Translations under genes and position numbers: made by a program | Shown: positions 7,098 through 29,403 of the stretch, piece after piece | Position numbering within the stretch: position 1 is the stretch's first letter | Layout: the number at the start of each line of letters is the position of its first letter | Notes under the pieces: generated by a model | The model's input: the letters and a program-made list of their open reading frames with translations, nothing else | Databases searched by the model: none | What the model was told of the DNA's origin: nothing | Virus record (IMG/VR): IMGVR_UViG_3300021602_000611 | Span: 1-32,188 of that record | Direction: 5' to 3' (one strand) | Origin: a virus | DNA: 32,188 nucleotides

Positions 7098-8621
7098 GTG
7101 GATAACATCATCGAATTTTTACAAAAAGCTGATTACTCAAAAGCAAACGCTATTATTTCCCAGTACATCACTAGCCGTCACGTGCAACTAGCAAACATGA
7201 GAGAAGACTATTATGACGGTGTGCATTATGACCGTAAAAATATACTAGGTGAAGGCGTAAAGACTAGATCAGGTACGTTTTTGTACAAACCAGAACGGGG
7301 CGAGGTTAGACTAGATATAGTTGCGAACTTCATTAAAGAAGTCGTAGACATCACATCCGAGCATTGCATGGGTATGAGCCACATCAATGAAGAGATTACA
7401 GTGAGTTGCGAGGGACTGGATGAGGCAAAAAGTGATGTACTTGATGACTTTTTTGAAGAAACCGATATAGACAACCTAGCACAAGATGTTTTTGAGGATT
7501 TATGCAAGCACACAAAGTCATACATCAGACTGCGACAACGAACAGCGGACGAGATTACAACGTTTTCTAGTGACTACAGGCTAGAGGTTGAAGACTTTGC
7601 AGCGGTACACCCTTTTTACGACTTAGGGAATAAACTAACTGGTGTTATGATTGCGTTCAACTTTGATAGCAAAAAACTAAAGTCAAAGTTTGATTCACAA
7701 CTCAACACAACCACAAAATCAAAGTACTCCACCTATGCCGAGATATGGACTGAAACCGAGTGCTACATCCTCATTGACGGCAAACCAGTGGAAACCGCTG
7801 GAAACTTTGGAAACGTCAACCAGTTTGGATTTATTCCCTTTTGGGAAGTAGAGGCAGGACGCTCGAACCTTAGCGATATTGAAAACATTATTTCACTACA
7901 GGATGCCGTGAATAAGTCACTAAGCAGTAACGACATAATCGAACACGTGAACGCCTTTGCAATGTTTTGTTTTGATGATAATGATGAAAAAAACCACGAG
8001 GCATACGCTGCGATACTTGAACAGAACAGCAACAAAATACCCCTAAAGCCCCGCTCGGTAATACCCATGAAGCTGCGACAAATTCAAGCGGACGGCGTGC
8101 CACAAACCGCACTACAGAACCTAGCCGACAACATCGAAAGAATGTGCACAACATCCGGTATTCCAACAAGCCTACTGTTTGGTAGTGACGGCGGAAACGA
8201 ATCTGGTAAAGCTAAAAAGATCAGGCTGTCACGATTAATAAAGAAGGTAAACAAACGCAGGAAAGCACTTACAAAAGCACTAAAAAGCATTGTTAGGAAA
8301 GTGACCTTTCTACTCTTCAAAGAAAACGCTTTAGCTTATGAAATAGAAATAGGTTTCCCTCCGATAATGGAGGATGACGAAAAGGAAAAGATAGATGCTG
8401 CAATTTCCAAGTCAACTATAGGTGTCTCAATCCCAACACTACTAAAAGAGAACGGCTACGATTGGGAAGAGGAAATAGGAAAACAAAAAGAATACGATGC
8501 ACTAAAAACAGGGACTACAGCAACCATTGCAACTGATACAACCGAAATACAAAGCGAACTAGACATCCTCACAAATCAACAAGCAACACCACAAACACCA
8601 GCAGGTTATGAGGTAGAGTAA
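7098..8621 (+). CDS. portal protein (SPP1 gp6-like)
   Basis: A 507-residue protein. The GTG at 7098 is chosen because GGAGGTG (7082-7088) ends nine bases before it; an in-frame TTG at 7080 would overlap this SD. It has the SPP1-type pattern: an N-terminal wing region, GNFGNVNQFGFIPFWEVEAG followed by the clip/stem segment ISLQDAVNKSLSS, and a basic crown region (KKIRLSRLIKKVNKRRK). Family role: a dodecameric ring at one capsid vertex through which DNA is pumped. The acidic, Thr-rich C-terminus is likely flexible. It lies between terL and the Mu F-like gene, as usual. Confidence 0.9.
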   Translation: MDNIIEFLQKADYSKANAIISQYITSRHVQLANMREDYYDGVHYDRKNILGEGVKTRSGTFLYKPERGEVRLDIVANFIKEVVDITSEHCMGMSHINEEITVSCEGLDEAKSDVLDDFFEETDIDNLAQDVFEDLCKHTKSYIRLRQRTADEITTFSSDYRLEVEDFAAVHPFYDLGNKLTGVMIAFNFDSKKLKSKFDSQLNTTTKSKYSTYAEIWTETECYILIDGKPVETAGNFGNVNQFGFIPFWEVEAGRSNLSDIENIISLQDAVNKSLSSNDIIEHVNAFAMFCFDDNDEKNHEAYAAILEQNSNKIPLKPRSVIPMKLRQIQADGVPQTALQNLADNIERMCTTSGIPTSLLFGSDGGNESGKAKKIRLSRLIKKVNKRRKALTKALKSIVRKVTFLLFKENALAYEIEIGFPPIMEDDEKEKIDAAISKSTIGVSIPTLLKENGYDWEEEIGKQKEYDALKTGTTATIATDTTEIQSELDILTNQQATPQTPAGYEVE

Positions 8622-9911: not shown

Positions 9912-10359
9912 TACAGTAACAGCATATAGAGCAACCCTGAAAGGGAAAGAGCAACCCATTAAGCAGTCTCTTTCTACTATTGTTACCGTTATCACGATTG
10001 AAGCACAGAACCGAATCAAAGAATACGCACCACACAACACCGGACAATTAAAACAGGGTATACAACGAACAATAACGACAAGTAGCAATATAACGGGTAA
10101 AGTCTACCCATCAACAGCATATGCAGCACCTATTGAAGACGGTAGCCGTCCTCACTGGGCACCGATTGAACCGCTAAAGATATGGGCAAAACAGCACGGT
10201 ATGAAAGAAAATGCAGCCTACGCAATACAGAAAAAAATAGCAAAGAACGGCACAAAAGCACGTCCCTTTTTCGCACCTGCAATAGCGGATGTTGAACGGC
10301 AAGCGAGTAAGACATTAGAGGATGCGGGTATTAAGATTTTGGGCATACTTGCGAAATAA
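9904..10359 (+). CDS. HK97 gp10-like head-tail protein
   Basis: A 151-residue protein taken from the ATG at 9904; a TTG nine bases earlier is also in frame. It shows the gp10 family pattern: IKEYAPHNTGQLKQGIQ, then YAAPIEDGSRPHWAPIE, and a C-terminal KARPFFAPAIAD. Family role: neck/connector or minor structural protein of HK97-like siphophages. Its position before scaffold and capsid genes is earlier than in many phages. It ends immediately before the structured, gene-free segment and is the last gene before a strong terminator. Confidence 0.75.
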   Translation: MPDTVTAYRATLKGKEQPIKQSLSTIVTVITIEAQNRIKEYAPHNTGQLKQGIQRTITTSSNITGKVYPSTAYAAPIEDGSRPHWAPIEPLKIWAKQHGMKENAAYAIQKKIAKNGTKARPFFAPAIADVERQASKTLEDAGIKILGILAK

Positions 10360-10439
10360 AAAAGCACTTGCAAAAAACACAAAATAACTGTAGCGTTTAC
10401 CTGATTTAAGCGACCTTTAACAATTGAATGTTTAGACAT

Positions 10440-10610
10440 TAACTGCCAAGTTGCAAGGTGAAATCTTGTAAAAGTGTCTTTGTAGTAGGTGCATGGTTGC
10501 TGTAGACCGTGTTACTACTGAAAAGATTTACTTGGCAGTTATCTTTTTGGACACCGAAAGCAAAGACTCTTTTACAAGGTTTTACGACCTAGTGAAAGAG
10601 TCTTTTTTTT
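10440..10610 (+). ncRNA. structured RNA-like element ending in an intrinsic terminator
   Basis: A gene-free segment (10360-10633) before the scaffold gene that can fold into several long helices. P1 pairs 10440-10451 with 10530-10541 (12 perfect pairs). Inside it are a small hairpin (10454-10458 with 10464-10468) and a longer one (10482-10488 and 10492-10498 with 10505-10518). The terminator hairpin pairs 10562-10580 with 10587-10605. A competing helix pairs 10458-10482 with 10561-10585: 22 Watson-Crick pairs, two G-U and one mismatch. That helix uses the terminator's 5' arm and crosses P1, giving either a pseudoknot or an attenuator switch. No known RNA family is recognised. Strand is assigned from the T-tract and gene direction. 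Confidence 0.7.
10562..10610 (+). terminator. strong intrinsic terminator upstream of scaffold gene
   Basis: The 5' arm 10562-10580 pairs with 10587-10605 with one mismatch and one G-U pair, leaving a six-base loop, and is followed by eight T (10603-10610). It would separate the packaging/head-assembly transcript from the scaffold/capsid transcript unless it is prevented from folding by the upstream complementary strand. Confidence 0.85.
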
Positions 10611-10633
10611 GTCGTTAGTAACAGGAAATATAC

Positions 10634-11269
10634 ATGTCAACTGAAACAACCACTTCCACAGCTGAGAAAGTAGAAGCTCCACAGAATACCGCTGAGAAGT
10701 CACCGGAAAATGTGCCAGCTGCTACAGATCAGGGTGCAAAGGGTACAGATACCAAATCAGAACGTGAACTCGAACTCGAAAGAAAGCTATCAGAGCAAGG
10801 TAGGGTCACAAAAGAACAGCAAAAGCAACTTTCCGAATTCAAAAAATGGAAAGAAGAGCAAGAAACCAAAGATCTTACTGAAACTCAGAAAGCCGAAAAA
10901 GAGTTAAAGTCTCTCCGTGATGAAGCGGAAAGAGTGAAACAGGAAAACCTATCACTCGAAATCAAGAACACAGTAGCCGAATTGGTAGCAGCCGAAACAG
11001 AACTCCCCGAAATAAAAGAGTTAAGACCTTTTATTAAGGGAAGTACAACAGAAGAGGCTACCGACAATTTTAAGGCACTGAAAAAGATACTCACTAACAT
11101 AAAAAATCAGTGGGTTGAAAACTCAACAAAACAGCAAACCGTAGGCATTCCAAGGGTTGCTAACCGTCAATCAGTTGAGGTTAACGCCTTTCAAGATGCA
11201 AAGCAAAAAAAAGACTTTGCAGGAATGTTTAATAACTCACCTGTAATAGGTGTTATACAAGGAAGATAA
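10634..11269 (+). CDS. capsid scaffold protein
   Basis: A 211-residue highly charged protein. The first 40 residues are Thr/Glu/Ala-rich and disordered, followed by a long coiled coil (about 42-115; for example LELERKLSEQGRVTKEQQKQ). The C-terminal part ends with the short hydrophobic tail NNSPVIGVIQGR, which could bind capsid subunits. Length, composition and position one gene before the major capsid protein are typical of siphophage scaffolds that line the prohead and are then removed. SD ACAGGAAA. It is the first gene after the structured RNA and terminator. Confidence 0.85.
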   Translation: MSTETTTSTAEKVEAPQNTAEKSPENVPAATDQGAKGTDTKSERELELERKLSEQGRVTKEQQKQLSEFKKWKEEQETKDLTETQKAEKELKSLRDEAERVKQENLSLEIKNTVAELVAAETELPEIKELRPFIKGSTTEEATDNFKALKKILTNIKNQWVENSTKQQTVGIPRVANRQSVEVNAFQDAKQKKDFAGMFNNSPVIGVIQGR

Positions 11270-11272
11270 TCA

Positions 11273-12511
11273 ATGTCTAACGCAACAGCAAATCAACTGG
11301 ATCAAGGTGACATTTTAAATACAGTACGTGACGTTGTAGAACTCTACACAGAAGTTTTGCACGGTACACCGTTTCTTTCCGCATTTGTTGGAAATGCAAC
11401 TGATTCACTTTCTCCATCATCGCTTAGATATGCAACAGCATTAAAGCATGAGTGGATTAGTTACTATCTCGCACCAAAAACGTGGACAGTAAACGCACAA
11501 AGTGCAATCGCTAGCGACACTATTGTATTAACTGGGGCAACTGGAGGCCTAGCCGTTGACGACATTCTCGTATTTGAGAATTCCACTACTGGTGCTATTT
11601 TGTCGGTGTACGCTAAGATAACAGCTATCGCTGTATCCACAAACACAACCTTAACTGTTACACGACCATGGAACTCTACAACTGACGTTGCAATACCAGC
11701 AAACGCAATTGTTAGGTCATTAGGACGAGCAGGACGAGACCAATTGCAAACAGAATCTAGTTACAACCAAGGAACAGCACTTTATAATTATGTTCAATTG
11801 TTCAAAGAGTACGTTACAATCGGAAAACTTGCACAGGCTATTAACTCCTACGACAAGAGTAATAGCATACCTCTTCAGCTTAGAGCTAAAATGTTTGAAA
11901 TGACGACAAAGGTTGATAACAGTCTTATCTTTGGGCTCCCAACCGCTGCCCCAACAGCTGCAACCACAAAAGATACAAGTGGCACAGTTGGTGGACTTCG
12001 TCACTTTGCAAGAACATATGGAACAACTAAAACAGGCGTTACAGGAAACACCAACACAACCCTAGCAGCTGCCGACATTGATTCAATGTTTGAGGCATAC
12101 GCAAGCGCAGGTGGAGACCTTAACAATGTAACTCTTGTATGTGACGTTGCACAGTCAAAGAACATAGCACCGCTCATCTCTAATAGTTCAAAAATAGTGC
12201 TACCTGCGGAATACATCGATTGGGCAAAAACAGCTGGAAATGCACCTGCTGAAATCTATCAAGCGAGTTTTTCGATTGGTGGAAATATCCTAAAAGCTAG
12301 GGTTTTGGCACTTTGGGGATTCCCAAAAACTGAAATTGTTTTGGCAAACACACAGAACATTCAAAAAGTGTGGTTACAAGGTCAGCAACTACAGACAATC
12401 CCACAACCTTCGACAGGTGACAACGACGCAATAAGCCTACGTGGTGCCCTCACTTATGAATTCATGAACCCAGAACAGCTTGTTATTCGTGACGGCTGCC
12501 CTAAAGGGTAG
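11273..12511 (+). CDS. major capsid protein (SU10/DUF5309-like HK97 fold)
   Basis: A 412-residue protein, inferred from position directly after the scaffold gene, length, and a pattern resembling SU10-like capsid proteins: VLHGTPFLSAF near the N-terminus, an inserted beta-rich Ala/Thr segment (about 75-140), then LGRAGRDQLQTES and YVQLFKEYVTIGKLAQAI. The HK97 fold forms the icosahedral shell. The beta-rich part may be the insertion domain. SD AAGGAAG. A hairpin follows the stop, in keeping with a highly expressed gene. No protease gene is seen nearby, so the prohead may mature without one. Confidence 0.85.
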   Translation: MSNATANQLDQGDILNTVRDVVELYTEVLHGTPFLSAFVGNATDSLSPSSLRYATALKHEWISYYLAPKTWTVNAQSAIASDTIVLTGATGGLAVDDILVFENSTTGAILSVYAKITAIAVSTNTTLTVTRPWNSTTDVAIPANAIVRSLGRAGRDQLQTESSYNQGTALYNYVQLFKEYVTIGKLAQAINSYDKSNSIPLQLRAKMFEMTTKVDNSLIFGLPTAAPTAATTKDTSGTVGGLRHFARTYGTTKTGVTGNTNTTLAAADIDSMFEAYASAGGDLNNVTLVCDVAQSKNIAPLISNSSKIVLPAEYIDWAKTAGNAPAEIYQASFSIGGNILKARVLALWGFPKTEIVLANTQNIQKVWLQGQQLQTIPQPSTGDNDAISLRGALTYEFMNPEQLVIRDGCPKG

Positions 12512-12523
12512 TGCTGTAAAAAT

Positions 12524-12548
12524 AAAGGGGAGTTACTAACTCCCCTTT
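12524..12548. terminator. hairpin after the capsid gene
   Basis: A perfect 11-base inverted repeat, AAAGGGGAGTT and its complement, separated by three bases. The T-tail is poor, so it may be a weak terminator or a 3' stabiliser that keeps capsid mRNA more abundant than downstream genes. Confidence 0.6.
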
Positions 12549-12570: not shown

Positions 12571-12762
12571 ATGGCAAAAAAAACATATAAAACGATTTAT
12601 GCAAATACAGTTTTAAATGAAGATGGAGTTATTCCTGTTGAAGGTAAATCAGGGTTTTATGAAGCAGAAGAAGGTGTAATGCCTAAACGATTAATAGATT
12701 CCGTTGTCGTTGAAGTTGCCGAAAAAAAAGAAAAGCCAACACCTGAAAAGTCAGAAAAATAG
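12571..12762 (+). CDS. small structural-module protein
   Basis: A 63-residue protein with SD AAAGGAT and a Lys/Glu/Pro-rich C-terminal tail (EKKEKPTPEKSEK). The front part is beta-like (YKTIYANTVLNEDGVIPV). It lies between the capsid and connector genes and is unknown. Its size and start MAKK resemble another small gene at 14284 in the same module, but I cannot show homology. It could be a head decoration or joining factor. Confidence 0.6.
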   Translation: MAKKTYKTIYANTVLNEDGVIPVEGKSGFYEAEEGVMPKRLIDSVVVEVAEKKEKPTPEKSEK

Positions 12763-12768
12763 GAAACT

Positions 12769-12788
12769 GGGCGGGTTAATCCCCGCCC
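12769..12788. terminator. GC-rich hairpin just before a start codon
   Basis: GGGCGGG pairs with CCCGCCC around a six-base loop, ending ten bases before the ATG at 12799. There is no T-tract, so termination is doubtful. The downstream gene lacks a clear SD, so the hairpin may affect its translation. Confidence 0.45.
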
Positions 12789-12798
12789 TCCCCTTACT

Positions 12799-13521
12799 AT
12801 GGCAGAACAAACATTAACTCAAAAGATAGCATCAGCACTAGCGAGGGCAAACTTCACCTATACAACGGATGAAGCAACCTCACTAGTTAATGATGCTTTA
12901 CGAGAGTTTAGCTTGTTATACCCTAGGTTGCTTTCTAGCACAACTACAACGGACGGCGTAAAAACATCGTATACCCTACCTACTGGTTTTCTTTCACTTG
13001 ATGCAGACACCTATTTTTCGAGCCCACTACATCCATCGGGTGTGGTTTTGAACGGTGTAGATGTATACGAACACGAACGATCAATAGAGAGATACTCAAC
13101 AACGTTGATGGACTGCCCTTTTATTGATCCGACCGTGTGGCAGTATCCCTATAACCTTTACGGAGTTATCCCTGCTAGTTTTTGGATTGTGTATGAGGCA
13201 ATACAAACAATAGAGTTTTACACCGCCCCTAGTGCTGGCAGTTTTACCGTGTACTATAACGGACTTTGGGACGCTACAACAATTAACCCTGTAGCACATA
13301 AAGCCGTTGTGCTTCTTTCCCTGCACTTCGCAAAACTAGAAAGCAAGGGCTTTTCTAGCGATGTGAAATCAGTTAGTGAGGGTGGTATCAGTATCACCTA
13401 CAAAGGTGGGCAAGAGGATGGAGCTGGACACTATCAACAAGCCGTTGACCTTATTAAGAAATTGCCCGGATTCGTTGACCGTTCAAAGAGTTACGTGATA
13501 ACTCCAGCAAGGAGGGCATAA
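12799..13521 (+). CDS. head-tail connector (adaptor) protein
   Basis: A 240-residue protein following the capsid genes. It opens with a helical segment typical of adaptor proteins (TLTQKIASALARANFTYTTD, then VNDALREFSLLYPRLL) and has central beta segments (TSYTLPTGFLSLDAD) and a C-terminal helix containing AVDLIKKLPGF. The role as an adaptor that docks on the portal is inferred from gene order and this helix-beta-helix arrangement. The start has no convincing SD; a GC-rich hairpin precedes it. The next start follows two bases after the stop. Confidence 0.6.
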   Translation: MAEQTLTQKIASALARANFTYTTDEATSLVNDALREFSLLYPRLLSSTTTTDGVKTSYTLPTGFLSLDADTYFSSPLHPSGVVLNGVDVYEHERSIERYSTTLMDCPFIDPTVWQYPYNLYGVIPASFWIVYEAIQTIEFYTAPSAGSFTVYYNGLWDATTINPVAHKAVVLLSLHFAKLESKGFSSDVKSVSEGGISITYKGGQEDGAGHYQQAVDLIKKLPGFVDRSKSYVITPARRA

Positions 13522-26832: not shown

Positions 26833-26860
26833 GGCTATACATATATAGAGAGAGAACAAA

Positions 26861-26898
26861 AAAAGCAGGGGGATAACTCACGTCCTTCTGCTTTTGCT
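26861..26898 (+). terminator. terminator of the late operon
   Basis: AAAAGCAG at 26861-26868 pairs with CTGCTTTT at 26888-26895, extended inwards by four further pairs (two G-U) around an 11-base loop. The T-run is short. It lies shortly after the endolysin stop. Confidence 0.7.
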
Positions 26899-26973
26899 AT
26901 TATTTGAAATGTAAATCTTTTTACAAAGTTATGAAACGGCTTCACCAAGCCAAAACATTTCTAATAATTCCCC

Positions 26974-27002
26974 TTGACATTGTACGCCTTTAGATATATA
27001 CT
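26974..27002 (+). promoter_or_regulatory. sigma70-type promoter
   Basis: TTGACA (26974-26979), a 17-base spacer and TATACT (26997-27002). This near-perfect match would transcribe the gene at 27048 and the ribbon-helix-helix gene. Confidence 0.85.
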
Positions 27003-27047
27003 AGGTACGTAAGATTCACTTACAACAACTAACAAAGGAACAACATC

Positions 27048-27344
27048 ATGACAATCAACAAAAACATCAAGGTAATCAAGGTTGAAGACTTCCCATCAGC
27101 AAACATTCAGACAGCAACATTCGAGCTTAACAGCCTTCAATACTATGCTGTAAGGAAGTATAACGATGATGGTATTACAACAGAGTGCAAGTACGGCAGA
27201 GAGCTAAAGAATGAATACTATGACACTGTATACACGCTAAAAGGCGAGGACGCATCACCAGCAATGAATAACAAGTCAGTAGAGTGTTGGTTTGGTGAAC
27301 TGCCAGAAGACGTTTTTAGTGCGATCAGGGGGTTAGCAAGATAA
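27048..27344 (+). CDS. 98-residue hypothetical protein
   Basis: An acidic alpha/beta protein, not recognised. It starts with a strand-rich segment (IKVIKVEDFPSANIQTATFE), has aromatic-rich turns (YYAVRKYNDDG) and ends with a helix (EDVFSAIRGLA). It has its own near-consensus promoter and an SD (AAAGGAAC), and it shares one base with the next start (TAATG). A separately promoted small gene after the late operon is typical of lysogenic or accessory functions. Function unknown. Confidence 0.6.
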   Translation: MTINKNIKVIKVEDFPSANIQTATFELNSLQYYAVRKYNDDGITTECKYGRELKNEYYDTVYTLKGEDASPAMNNKSVECWFGELPEDVFSAIRGLAR

Positions 27345-27493
27345 TGACAAAACAACCCGCCCGAACCTCACTAAACTTATCAAAAGAACTACACGAACGC
27401 ATTAGGAACATTGCAAAAAAGAACAACCGGCGAATAGTTGACCAGCTGCAACGCTGGGTACAACAGGAAGAGAAGAAGAAAGACACCTCTTAG
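27344..27493 (+). CDS. 49-residue ribbon-helix-helix (Arc/CopG-like) regulator
   Basis: The peptide shows the RHH pattern: an N-terminal strand (RTSLNLSKEL), helix A (ELHERIRNIAKKNN), a turn and helix B (IVDQLQRWVQQEE), then a basic tail. RHH proteins dimerise and bind short operators through the strand. It is short but complete, coupled to the preceding gene by a one-base overlap, and followed by a strong terminator that begins inside its last codons. Its target may be its own promoter at 26974 or others in the block; not shown. Confidence 0.75.
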   Translation: MTKQPARTSLNLSKELHERIRNIAKKNNRRIVDQLQRWVQQEEKKKDTS

Positions 27494-27506
27494 GGGGTGT
27501 CTTTTT
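27479..27506 (+). terminator. bidirectional intrinsic terminator
   Basis: AAAGACACC pairs with GGTGTCTTT and is followed by TTTTT on the plus strand; the complementary strand also runs into T-rich sequence. It can end both the plus-strand RHH operon and the convergent minus-strand cassette. Confidence 0.85.
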
Positions 27507-27561
27507 GTAACTCCTCCTCCACATACTCCAACAACTCCCCGACCGACACGTTGAGGGCTTT
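27490..27561 (-). pseudogene. XRE repressor C-terminal remnant, copy 1
   Basis: Read on the minus strand, 23 codons end in TAA and encode ALNVSVGELLEYVEEELQKD and a short tail, the final helix of an XRE-type HTH repressor. An in-frame TGA lies just before (27562-27564) and no HTH domain precedes it, so only the 3' end of the gene survives. It lies directly downstream of the PH-like gene. Confidence 0.6.
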
Positions 27562-27573
27562 TCAAGCATTCAC

Positions 27574-27813
27574 TTACTTCATTAAACTGTAAATTATTTC
27601 AATAGCTTGTTTCTTTTTTGATGAGTAACAAGGAACTTTATACTTTTGTCCACCAGACGTTTCAACTGTTATAAGTCCAAACATAGGCATTCCAGCATTT
27701 ATTGCAGCAATTTGCTTTATTGGAATGCTTTTTTTAAAAACAGCACCCCATTCTATTTTATTATCATAAACCTTTAAAGCTCCAAACCCTGGTGATTTAA
27801 ACAAAAGATTCAT
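27574..27813 (-). CDS. small PH-domain-like protein
   Basis: A 79-residue protein: ALKVYDNKIEWGAVFKKS, IPIKQIAAINAGMPMFGLIT, a VETSGGQKYKVPCYS hairpin and a C-terminal helix (KKKQAIEIIYSLMK). This strand-hairpin-helix order resembles short bacterial PH-like domains used as small cytoplasmic or membrane-associated modules. No catalytic residues. SD AAGGGGAATGT sits before the ATG. Upstream is a promoter and a leader nearly identical to that of the DUF3862 gene; downstream is an XRE remnant. It is probably a lysogenic accessory gene. Confidence 0.65.
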   Translation of the reverse strand: MNLLFKSPGFGALKVYDNKIEWGAVFKKSIPIKQIAAINAGMPMFGLITVETSGGQKYKVPCYSSKKKQAIEIIYSLMK

Positions 27814-27825
27814 ACATTCCCCTTG

Positions 27826-27841
27826 TTAAGTTATGCTGACA
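27826..27841 (-). repeat. shared leader repeat, copy B
   Basis: TTAAGTTATGCTGACA on the plus strand matches 28371-28386 at 15 of 16 bases, at the same distance from the minus-strand start codon apart from small indels. A GGGG-containing SD also aligns. Confidence 0.75.
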
Positions 27842-27868
27842 TATTAAATTACTAACGCTATTTGTCAC
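27841..27868 (-). promoter_or_regulatory. minus-strand promoter of the PH-like gene
   Basis: On the minus strand GTGACA, a 16-base spacer and TAATAT, placed at the same point relative to the leader repeat as in the DUF3862 cassette. Confidence 0.6.
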
Positions 27869-27947
27869 TTGGGACATACTCTAGTAATTCTCCGACGGAT
27901 ACTTGAAGTGATTTGCAGATTTTTTCTACTTCAATCCTATTTGTGTC
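27858..27947 (-). pseudogene. XRE repressor C-terminal remnant, copy 2
   Basis: On the minus strand 29 codons ending in TAG encode NRIEVEKICKSLQVSVGELL and EYVPSDK, the last helices of an XRE-type repressor. An in-frame TAA precedes it (27948-27950). It overlaps the 3' end of the DUF3862 gene by 22 bases in another frame. It shares VSVGELLEYV with copy 1 at clearly diverged DNA, so the two are related but not a recent duplication. Confidence 0.65.
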
Positions 27948-28354
27948 TTACTCATTAACTTATCATTCTGAAACATTGCATTCATATTTGCACCCCATCC
28001 GGTCGCACCTTCCCATGTGTACATCTTTGTTGCGTATCCTGCTACATTCGATTCACTTAAAATAGTGCCCTCTACTCCAAGCACTGCAACCGCTTGTTTA
28101 TAAGACATTCCATCTTTTAGTTTGTTGAAATTTTCAAGCGTCACACCGCTTTTCGCTTCCACTTTTTCAGGTACAGTTGTACCGGAGCTATTCGTAGTTG
28201 TCGTATTTGTAGTCTTAGAACTTGAAGATCCAGCAGCAGCTAACACGGCAACAATAACGATACCAACAACTATCAACCCACAACACCCGAACGCAACACC
28301 GCCCGCCATTCCAAGCCCACCCAAGAAACCTCTACCTGCTGAATTTCCACTCAT
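27926..28354 (-). CDS. membrane-anchored DUF3862-domain protein
   Basis: A 142-residue protein from the ATG at 28354, chosen because AGGGGG lies just upstream; the frame extends further without an SD. It has a Gly-rich start, one membrane span (about 22-42, CCGLIVVGIVIVAVLAAAG), a Ser/Thr-rich linker and a C-terminal DUF3862-like domain (about 70-142; NFNKLKDGMSYKQAVAVLG and the ending KTQIGLK). Such SmpA/BLIP-like domains usually act outside the membrane. Role unknown; possibly a lysogenic conversion or exclusion factor. Its own promoter faces that of the 28476 gene. Confidence 0.75.
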   Translation of the reverse strand: MSGNSAGRGFLGGLGMAGGVAFGCCGLIVVGIVIVAVLAAAGSSSSKTTNTTTTNSSGTTVPEKVEAKSGVTLENFNKLKDGMSYKQAVAVLGVEGTILSESNVAGYATKMYTWEGATGWGANMNAMFQNDKLMSKTQIGLK

Positions 28355-28370
28355 ACGATGCCCCCTTTTA

Positions 28371-28386
28371 TTAAGATATGCTGACA
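28371..28386 (-). repeat. shared leader repeat, copy A
   Basis: TTAAGATATGCTGACA on the plus strand, matching 27826-27841 at 15 of 16 bases and lying in the untranslated leader of the DUF3862 gene. Confidence 0.75.
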
Positions 28387-28416
28387 GTGTAGCACGCACA
28401 CCCTCTTGATTGTCAA
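28386..28416 (-). promoter_or_regulatory. minus-strand promoter of the DUF3862 gene
   Basis: On the minus strand TTGACA (28416-28411), a 19-base spacer and TACACT (28391-28386). The spacer is longer than ideal. The -10 box lies in one arm of an inverted repeat. Confidence 0.65.
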
Positions 28417-28433
28417 TAGTTGAGGTGCTACAC
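28388..28433. promoter_or_regulatory. inverted repeat spanning divergent promoters (putative operator)
   Basis: GTGTAGCAC (28388-28396) and its exact complement GTGCTACAC (28425-28433) are 28 bases apart. Each contains most of a -10 box (TACACT) of opposite promoters. A GTAGCAC also occurs at 31086-31092, just upstream of the XRE repressor gene. Confidence 0.5.
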
Positions 28434-28434
28434 T
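28406..28434 (+). promoter_or_regulatory. plus-strand promoter of the 28476 gene
   Basis: TTGATT (28406-28411), a 17-base spacer and TACACT (28429-28434). Its -35 box touches that of the divergent promoter. Confidence 0.7.
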
Positions 28435-28475
28435 ACGTTCAGAACCGAAAAAAAACCGAATAGAAAAGGATTACT

Positions 28476-28685
28476 ATGAAGGGCTACTATACCATTCAGG
28501 AATTAACTGAGAAGTATTTCTCAAAACTAGATAAAGTTGAGATAGAAAATAAGCTAACCTACCTACGAAGACTTTTAAAAAATAATCATCATGCTGTAAC
28601 TGGTTCATTTAAAGAAGGTAGCAAGTTTAGGGGTGTTTGGTACATTGCCGAAGATTGCGACTACGTAGCCAAACTAAAGGAATAA
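28476..28685 (+). CDS. small putative DNA-binding protein
   Basis: A 69-residue basic protein: YYTIQELTEKYFSKLD, then KLTYLRRLLKNNHHAV and a beta-wing-like FRGVWYIAEDCDYVA. This helix-turn-helix plus wing pattern resembles excisionase/Cox or MerR-type small regulators. It is the first gene right of a divergent promoter with symmetrical operator-like repeats and is opposite a minus-strand gene, a setting typical of regulators. SD AAAAGGA. The call is inference; no signature residue proves it. Confidence 0.5.
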   Translation: MKGYYTIQELTEKYFSKLDKVEIENKLTYLRRLLKNNHHAVTGSFKEGSKFRGVWYIAEDCDYVAKLKE

Positions 28686-28694
28686 TTTTTTTGC

Positions 28695-28723
28695 TTGACA
28701 TAGTCCGGTAGATGTACTATACT
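28695..28723 (+). promoter_or_regulatory. consensus sigma70-type promoter
   Basis: TTGACA (28695-28700), a 17-base spacer and TATACT (28718-28723). It drives the three small genes from 28800 and possibly the lysozyme gene. Confidence 0.88.
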
Positions 28724-28762
28724 GGTATTAGTGAAAAGAAAAACAATATTTTTTTATCAAGA

Positions 28763-28783
28763 GTGGTCAGGCTGCTTGACCAC
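28763..28783. promoter_or_regulatory. hairpin in the leader of the 28800 operon
   Basis: GTGGTCA and TGACCAC flank seven bases, 16 bases before the ATG at 28800 in the transcript leader. No T-tract follows, so it is probably an mRNA stability or translation element. Confidence 0.55.
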
Positions 28784-28799
28784 AAAAAGGAACACAACC

Positions 28800-28910
28800 A
28801 TGAAACTAATCAACACACTCACAAACGGAGAACAGACCGTCTACATGTTCGACACCGGCGACTCAATCAAGATCATCACCGTGAACAATGAAACACAGGA
28901 GGTAGCGTAG
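28800..28910 (+). CDS. 36-residue microprotein
   Basis: The ATG at 28800 follows AAAAAGGAAC. The protein is 36 residues (TVYMFDTGDSIKIITVNN in the middle), beta-rich, acidic and without cysteine or membrane segment. It is the first gene after a near-consensus promoter and a leader hairpin, so it should be well expressed in lysogens if the promoter is not repressed. Its stop region carries the SD of the next gene. Function unknown. Confidence 0.5.
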   Translation: MKLINTLTNGEQTVYMFDTGDSIKIITVNNETQEVA

Positions 28911-28912
28911 TT

Positions 28913-29158
28913 ATGACCATCACAACTAACCCCGTCAAAATCCAAACAGTCGAAATCATCGTCACCCTCTCTATGCCGGTCTACACGAACGGCAACCCCG
29001 ACAAAGAGGCAAGATTAAAAACCGAGGCACTACTACAGGATCGGGGCATTGACTACGATCTAGTTTCTACCGTCAAAGACTTTGAGGAAGACAACGCCGA
29101 CAGGGCAGCGGACTTGGCGTTTGAGCAGCATCAAGATTTAGTTTTTTCACAAATATAA
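28913..29158 (+). CDS. 81-residue hypothetical protein
   Basis: An acidic alpha/beta protein: VKIQTVEIIVTLSMPVYT, LKTEALLQDRGIDYDLVS, then an Asp/Glu-rich helix (KDFEEDNADRAADLAFE). No family recognised. AGGAGG lies about 11 bases upstream of the ATG within the end of the previous gene. It is the second gene of the promoter-28695 operon. Confidence 0.55.
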   Translation: MTITTNPVKIQTVEIIVTLSMPVYTNGNPDKEARLKTEALLQDRGIDYDLVSTVKDFEEDNADRAADLAFEQHQDLVFSQI

Positions 29159-29181
29159 CCAAACCAAGAAAGGAGGCAACT

Positions 29182-29352
29182 ATGGAAAAGGCAACATTCG
29201 ACCTACTCACCAGAATTGAGGGCTTTCTAACAGTCCTCATCAATGAGCGCAGGGACGAAGCAATGAACATCATCGGAGACATTGCCCAACTACGCTACGA
29301 GCAACAAAAAAGAGCCGACAGCAACGCCGCCGACTCTACCCCATCACAATAA
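29182..29352 (+). CDS. 56-residue helical protein
   Basis: It starts at the ATG at 29182 after a strong AAAGGAGG. It is a helical, amphipathic protein (FDLLTRIEGFLTVLINERRD; QLRYEQQKRADS) ending in a Ser/Ala-rich tail. It could be a short coiled-coil oligomer. No function is visible. It ends about 50 bases before the lysozyme gene. Confidence 0.55.
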   Translation: MEKATFDLLTRIEGFLTVLINERRDEAMNIIGDIAQLRYEQQKRADSNAADSTPSQ

Positions 29353-29403
29353 CAATGAGGCTGGTGCTAGAACACCGCTTCCTATTTTACAGGAATAACA
29401 AAA

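Follow-up and report, generated by a model that had tools for sequence, protein, structure and literature searches.

In tailed phages, both the quantity and the timing of capsid and scaffold synthesis must be right, and the control of these genes is usually ascribed to promoters, antiterminator proteins and translation. What, then, is the role of a strongly structured RNA that lies directly in front of them? The locus that raises this question is in the virus record IMGVR_UViG_3300021602_000611, of which positions 1 to 32,188 were analysed (hereafter the window). The source of the window is an uncultured tailed phage, with modules for a DnaB-like helicase, Holliday junction resolvase, TerL, portal, head morphogenesis protein, neck protein, scaffold, SU10-type capsid, adaptor, tape measure, tail, endolysin and integrase. 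Positions 26833-29403 (2.6 kb) contain small open frames only, and no gene was assigned there.

The neck gene ends at 10359 and the scaffold gene starts at 10634. The 274 nt between them hold no confident gene and divide TerL, portal and neck from scaffold and capsid; structured RNA occupies most of this gap. A preliminary description, made from the sequence, had placed the RNA upstream of a capsid operon. This was correct, as the capsid gene directly follows the scaffold gene and has a strong match to the SU10-type family, the match of the scaffold protein being weaker (Table 1). The scaffold start codon is 24 nt past the end of the T run of the terminator, and a Shine-Dalgarno-like AGGAA (10623-10627) lies between the two. 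No sigma-70-like promoter was seen in 10360-10440, which carries little weight, as the promoters of the host may differ.

Table 1. Elements of the leader RNA and the genes that follow it, in window coordinates.
Feature	Positions	Strand	Remarks
P0 5' strand	10429..10436	+	8 bp with 10546-10553, 3 of them G-U; mean pair probability 0.90
P1 5' strand	10440..10451	+	12 perfect Watson-Crick pairs with 10530-10541; proposed control helix
P2 hairpin	10452..10470	+	10452-10459 with 10463-10470, loop GAA; MFE fold
Segment A	10458..10483	+	putative antiterminator 5' strand; predicted to be sequestered in P2/P3 in the terminating state
P3 long hairpin	10476..10527	+	10476-10488/10515-10527 plus 10491-10498/10505-10512, loop GCUGUA
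41-codon open frame	10493..10618	+	spans P3, P1 and terminator
P1 3' strand	10530..10541	+	MFE fold
P0 3' strand	10546..10553	+	MFE fold; P0 closes the putative anti-antiterminator domain
Intrinsic terminator	10555..10611	+	hairpin 10555-10581/10586-10611, 25 pairs; T run 10603-10610 (eight T)
Segment B	10560..10585	+	putative antiterminator 3' strand; shared, as the terminator 5' arm
Scaffold protein gene	10634..11269	+	phrog_172 7.1e-4, PF14265 9.1e-4 (weak match)
Major capsid protein gene, SU10 type	11273..12511	+	PF17236 4.9e-28; phrog_1328 1.9e-13

The RNA of 10425-10620 on the plus strand has an MFE of -79 kcal/mol, compared with -43.2 +/- 3.8 for dinucleotide shuffles (z -9.4). The minus strand of the same region is less extreme (z -5.8), and the 5' domain folded alone gives z -7.7. 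With GC correction, the region is the most extreme of all 180-nt stretches on both strands of the window. G-U pairs account for 14 of the 73 pairs in the MFE fold, which points to selection on the plus-strand RNA and not on the DNA. Each helix of this fold (P0, P1, P2, P3 and the terminator) has a mean pair probability of at least 0.90. The perfect 12-pair helix reported in the preliminary description and the two hairpins enclosed by it were found again, as P1 with P2 and P3 inside; the outer 8-pair helix P0 had been missed. The terminator hairpin described there is real and is longer than was thought, and one detail needs correction: its T run is eight in total, and the first three of these belong to the hairpin arm as originally drawn.

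Two other structured places in the window lie further downstream. The second most structured 180-nt stretch is on the minus strand at 12749-12928 (z about -6 versus shuffles) and spans the start of the adaptor gene (12799); the plus strand is structured there too (z -4.9). Directly 3' of the capsid gene, at 12524-12548, is the perfect hairpin AAAGGGGAGTTACTAACTCCCCTTT, and three related phages (L019, L035 and L074) have long hairpins at an apparently matching place. Hairpins 3' of the capsid gene perhaps stabilise or end the capsid mRNA.

The MFE fold competes with a second long pairing. A helix between 10458-10482 and 10561-10585 had been proposed, and it proved exact, with 22 Watson-Crick pairs, two G-U pairs and one U-U mismatch; the complementarity of A and B extends over 26 positions. 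Its simple score is 19.6, whereas 1000 shuffles of the 196-nt region reached no more than 15.8 and 245,140 shuffles restricted to the 177 nt upstream no more than 17.4 (Gumbel p about 1e-6). The earlier opinion that such a complementarity is very unlikely by chance was therefore borne out, none of the 245,140 shuffles having equalled the A:B score. As a biological control, 177 terminator-like hairpins from 1.87 Mb of related phage loci were scanned for upstream sequence able to pair with the 5' arm. The highest score among them was 10.2, compared with 17.4 for the terminator of the capsid operon in the same scan, so upstream partners of this kind are not a normal property of terminator arms.

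A:B shares segment A with P2/P3 and segment B with the terminator, and it crosses P1 because A is inside P1 and B is outside; the use of the terminator 5' arm and the crossing had been noted in the preliminary description. When P1 is closed, the connector between its 5' strand and segment A offers only the 6 nt of 10452-10457 to span a 26-position helix, which is too short, so that on geometric grounds P1 and the full A:B helix should not form together. Anti-antiterminator, antiterminator and terminator are thus present as a complete set of three folds that are mutually exclusive.

Model energies were followed by the position of the RNA 3' end, as equilibrium values for naked RNA. On this basis the antiterminator has -56.2 versus -54.3 for the P1 state when the RNA ends at 10585, -57.8 versus -55.5 at 10590, and -58.0 versus -58.2 at 10595, so that the two are in balance over this stretch. 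The state with P1 plus terminator is best from about 10598; at 10600 it has -67.4 versus -58.0 for the antiterminator, and its lead grows from 9 kcal/mol at this point to 18.5 at 10612. Once folding is complete, termination is strongly favoured (-79 versus -60.5), and read-through would therefore need an active cause. Both strands of P1 have been made by about 10541 and both of P0 by about 10553, ahead of the synthesis of B, so this folding order predicts that the leader should terminate without help. When 10425-10451, which includes the P1 5' strand, was blocked in the model, the antiterminator was the best fold through 10600, and at 10605 it was 1.2 kcal/mol short of the best. Since blocking this strand favours A:B, P1 would be the natural control point.

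Our preferred reading, to which we give a probability of about 60%, is that the element is a transcription attenuator of the scaffold-capsid operon, off by default and switched on when the formation of P1 is prevented. The nascent leader would fold into P0, P1, P2 and P3 (10429-10553) first and bury segment A. Segment B, on emerging, would pair with 10586-10611 to form the terminator, and RNA polymerase would halt at the U tract, ahead of the scaffold Shine-Dalgarno sequence. P1 might be kept from forming, or be opened, when a protein, an antisense RNA or a ribosome acts on it or when a ligand causes a rearrangement. With P1 absent, A would pair with B, the terminator would be precluded and transcription would continue into scaffold and capsid. 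On this reading, termination and read-through would really take place at the leader, the choice between them would be regulated and the off state would be the default. What the sequence and the model themselves establish is the three folds, how they overlap, how improbable they are by chance, their energies in the model and where they lie. An attenuator was one of the two readings offered in the preliminary description, and the anatomy, the energetics and the location directly ahead of scaffold and capsid support it; the other, a pseudoknot, is disfavoured (see below).

The main rival to the attenuator is a plain terminator or a terminated small RNA. The small RNA would be a separate, stable and terminated transcript of about 190 nt, made from its own or an upstream promoter and acting in trans on RNAs or proteins of the phage or its host. 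A:B would then be incidental, left for instance by an inverted duplication from which the terminator arm arose. The three-way-junction domain is compact and very stable and has a strong terminator behind it, which would suit such an RNA; moreover, A and the 3' arm resemble each other and the reverse complement of B, as they would after a duplication. A 28-nt stretch of P3 (10493-10520) is also 82% complementary to the end of the portal gene (8500-8527), but other inverted matches in the window are at least as good, so this is at background level and probably due to chance. Because the A:B energies are balanced exactly where an attenuator requires it, and because the element sits right at the scaffold start, we consider a separate small RNA unlikely.

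An unregulated terminator, stabilised by the structure upstream of it, could instead end the packaging and neck transcript, scaffold and capsid being transcribed from another, unrecognised promoter. The parting of TerL, portal and neck from scaffold and capsid by the gap agrees with this, as does the common presence of long hairpins after the capsid gene in related phages. However, it leaves unexplained both A:B and the 12-pair P1 that exactly encloses A, and the short distance from the T run to the scaffold start gives little room for a promoter behind the terminator. An unregulated terminator is thus rather improbable.

It is very doubtful that the leader is translated, with ribosomes reading the 41-codon frame, opening P1 and the terminator, and so coupling capsid transcription to translation. 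The frame does cross P3, P1 and the terminator, and its codon-use score of 0.27 compares with 0.23 +/- 0.135 for chunks of real genes of the phage; this score was reached by 3% of open antisense windows and by 0 out-of-frame windows. Its start codon, however, is fully paired in both states, and AGG stands just 3 nt ahead of the AUG, a poor Shine-Dalgarno spacing. The frame has no protein relatives (best E about 1) and no Pfam or PHROG match. Since its stop is just past the terminator, the frame does not qualify as an upstream leader peptide of the classical kind. Finally, coexistence of P1 and A:B in a pseudoknot would account for their crossing in sequence order, but it is hardly credible given the geometry of the 6-nt connector and given that A:B must also displace P2, lower P3 and the terminator.

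If the attenuator reading is true, a leader attenuator before scaffold and capsid adds a layer of RNA control in cis. A more tentative proposal goes further: the element may be an RNA switch, encoded by the phage, that sets the timing of scaffold and capsid production through transcription, with a three-way-junction domain outside known RNA families as the sensor of some signal from phage or host. A short DNA fragment is enough to test the candidate attenuator in vitro, and neither the phage nor its host is needed.

Searches by sequence, by pattern and by covariance model gave no homologue of the RNA. Capsid, portal and head protein searches of IMG/VR gave no homologue, and a capsid search of genome contigs found none. 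The TerL search gave about 90 loci that share TerL alone; where TerL is 44-58% identical, portals and capsids are unrelated. With a capsid profile built with distant Bacillus phage capsids, 60 loci with SU10-like capsids were obtained at 23-29% identity, and none of the 60 has a similar RNA upstream of the capsid. When 380 genomes from one candidate phylum and 42 from a second were searched for the capsid, the only matches were weak and distant. The DNA pattern for P1 had no matches; that for the A/B core had two, which lack the structure and were judged to be chance. A single-sequence covariance model matched only the window itself, and Blastn against phages and plasmids gave nothing relevant. 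Other structured spots inspected in relatives were hairpins after a capsid-like gene or within coding sequence, and are not counterparts. The element is thus not general to this capsid or TerL type, being absent from distant relatives that have an SU10-like capsid or share the TerL, and this counts against the attenuator reading. At such distances its absence is no refutation, but the element cannot be called conserved.

The TerL genes of four related phages are interrupted at one residue (about 276) by an open insert of 297-303 aa (L031, 9663-10562; L032, 1653-2561; L033, 1871-2779; L036, 4572-5462). The inserts begin with Cys and end with HNC, as inteins do, and no Rfam intron was found at these four sites.

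Across the whole window, no Rfam 15 family matched at or above its gathering score, and matches below it (SpF03 sRNA, PyrR, microRNAs) were rejected as generic hairpin matches. The leader can nevertheless be compared with several known attenuators. In the Bacillus subtilis rplJL leader, an autogenous attenuator that responds to L10(L12)4 and has a kink-turn/UAA site for L10, an anti-antiterminator, an antiterminator and an intrinsic terminator have been shown experimentally (PMC4538822). The phage leader likewise has three overlapping structures in the same order, each excluding the next, but its genes and sequence are different and its overlap is 26 positions, compared with 8 and 5 nt in rplJL (PMC4538822). 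In the pyr operon attenuators, an anti-antiterminator sequesters the antiterminator strand and is followed by the terminator (PMC7430163, PMC4347634). The topology is the same in the phage, where the genes are those of the capsid; RF00515 gives only a weak match (20.1 bits versus a gathering score of 54), and the binding-loop consensus of PyrR, ARUCCAGAGAGGYU, is unmatched in the RNA at up to 3 mismatches, so that a PyrR site was rejected. A sensor-like multi-helix domain joined to a choice between antiterminator and terminator also recalls T-box leaders and transcriptional riboswitches. A T-box was rejected as well, its core AGGGUGGNACCGCG being unmatched near the RNA at up to 3 mismatches, and no Rfam riboswitch matched.

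In antisense-controlled attenuators of the pT181/pIP501 type, an upstream pre-emptor segment pairs with the 5' arm of the terminator, as A does with B in the phage. Unlike in those systems, the gene behind the leader is for the capsid and not for replication, and no minus-strand antisense gene or promoter was found here; in 10430-10640 the minus strand has no sigma-70-like site, though the promoters of the host may differ. Like our element, the Mu-gpT-DE candidate motif is a structured RNA that goes with a phage capsid gene; the Rfam matches did not include it even at E 10. A limited literature search found no description of a leader of this kind ahead of phage capsid genes. What the phage leader has in common with transcription attenuators is a set of mutually exclusive structures with shared strands, and an intrinsic terminator placed ahead of the coding region that it would control.
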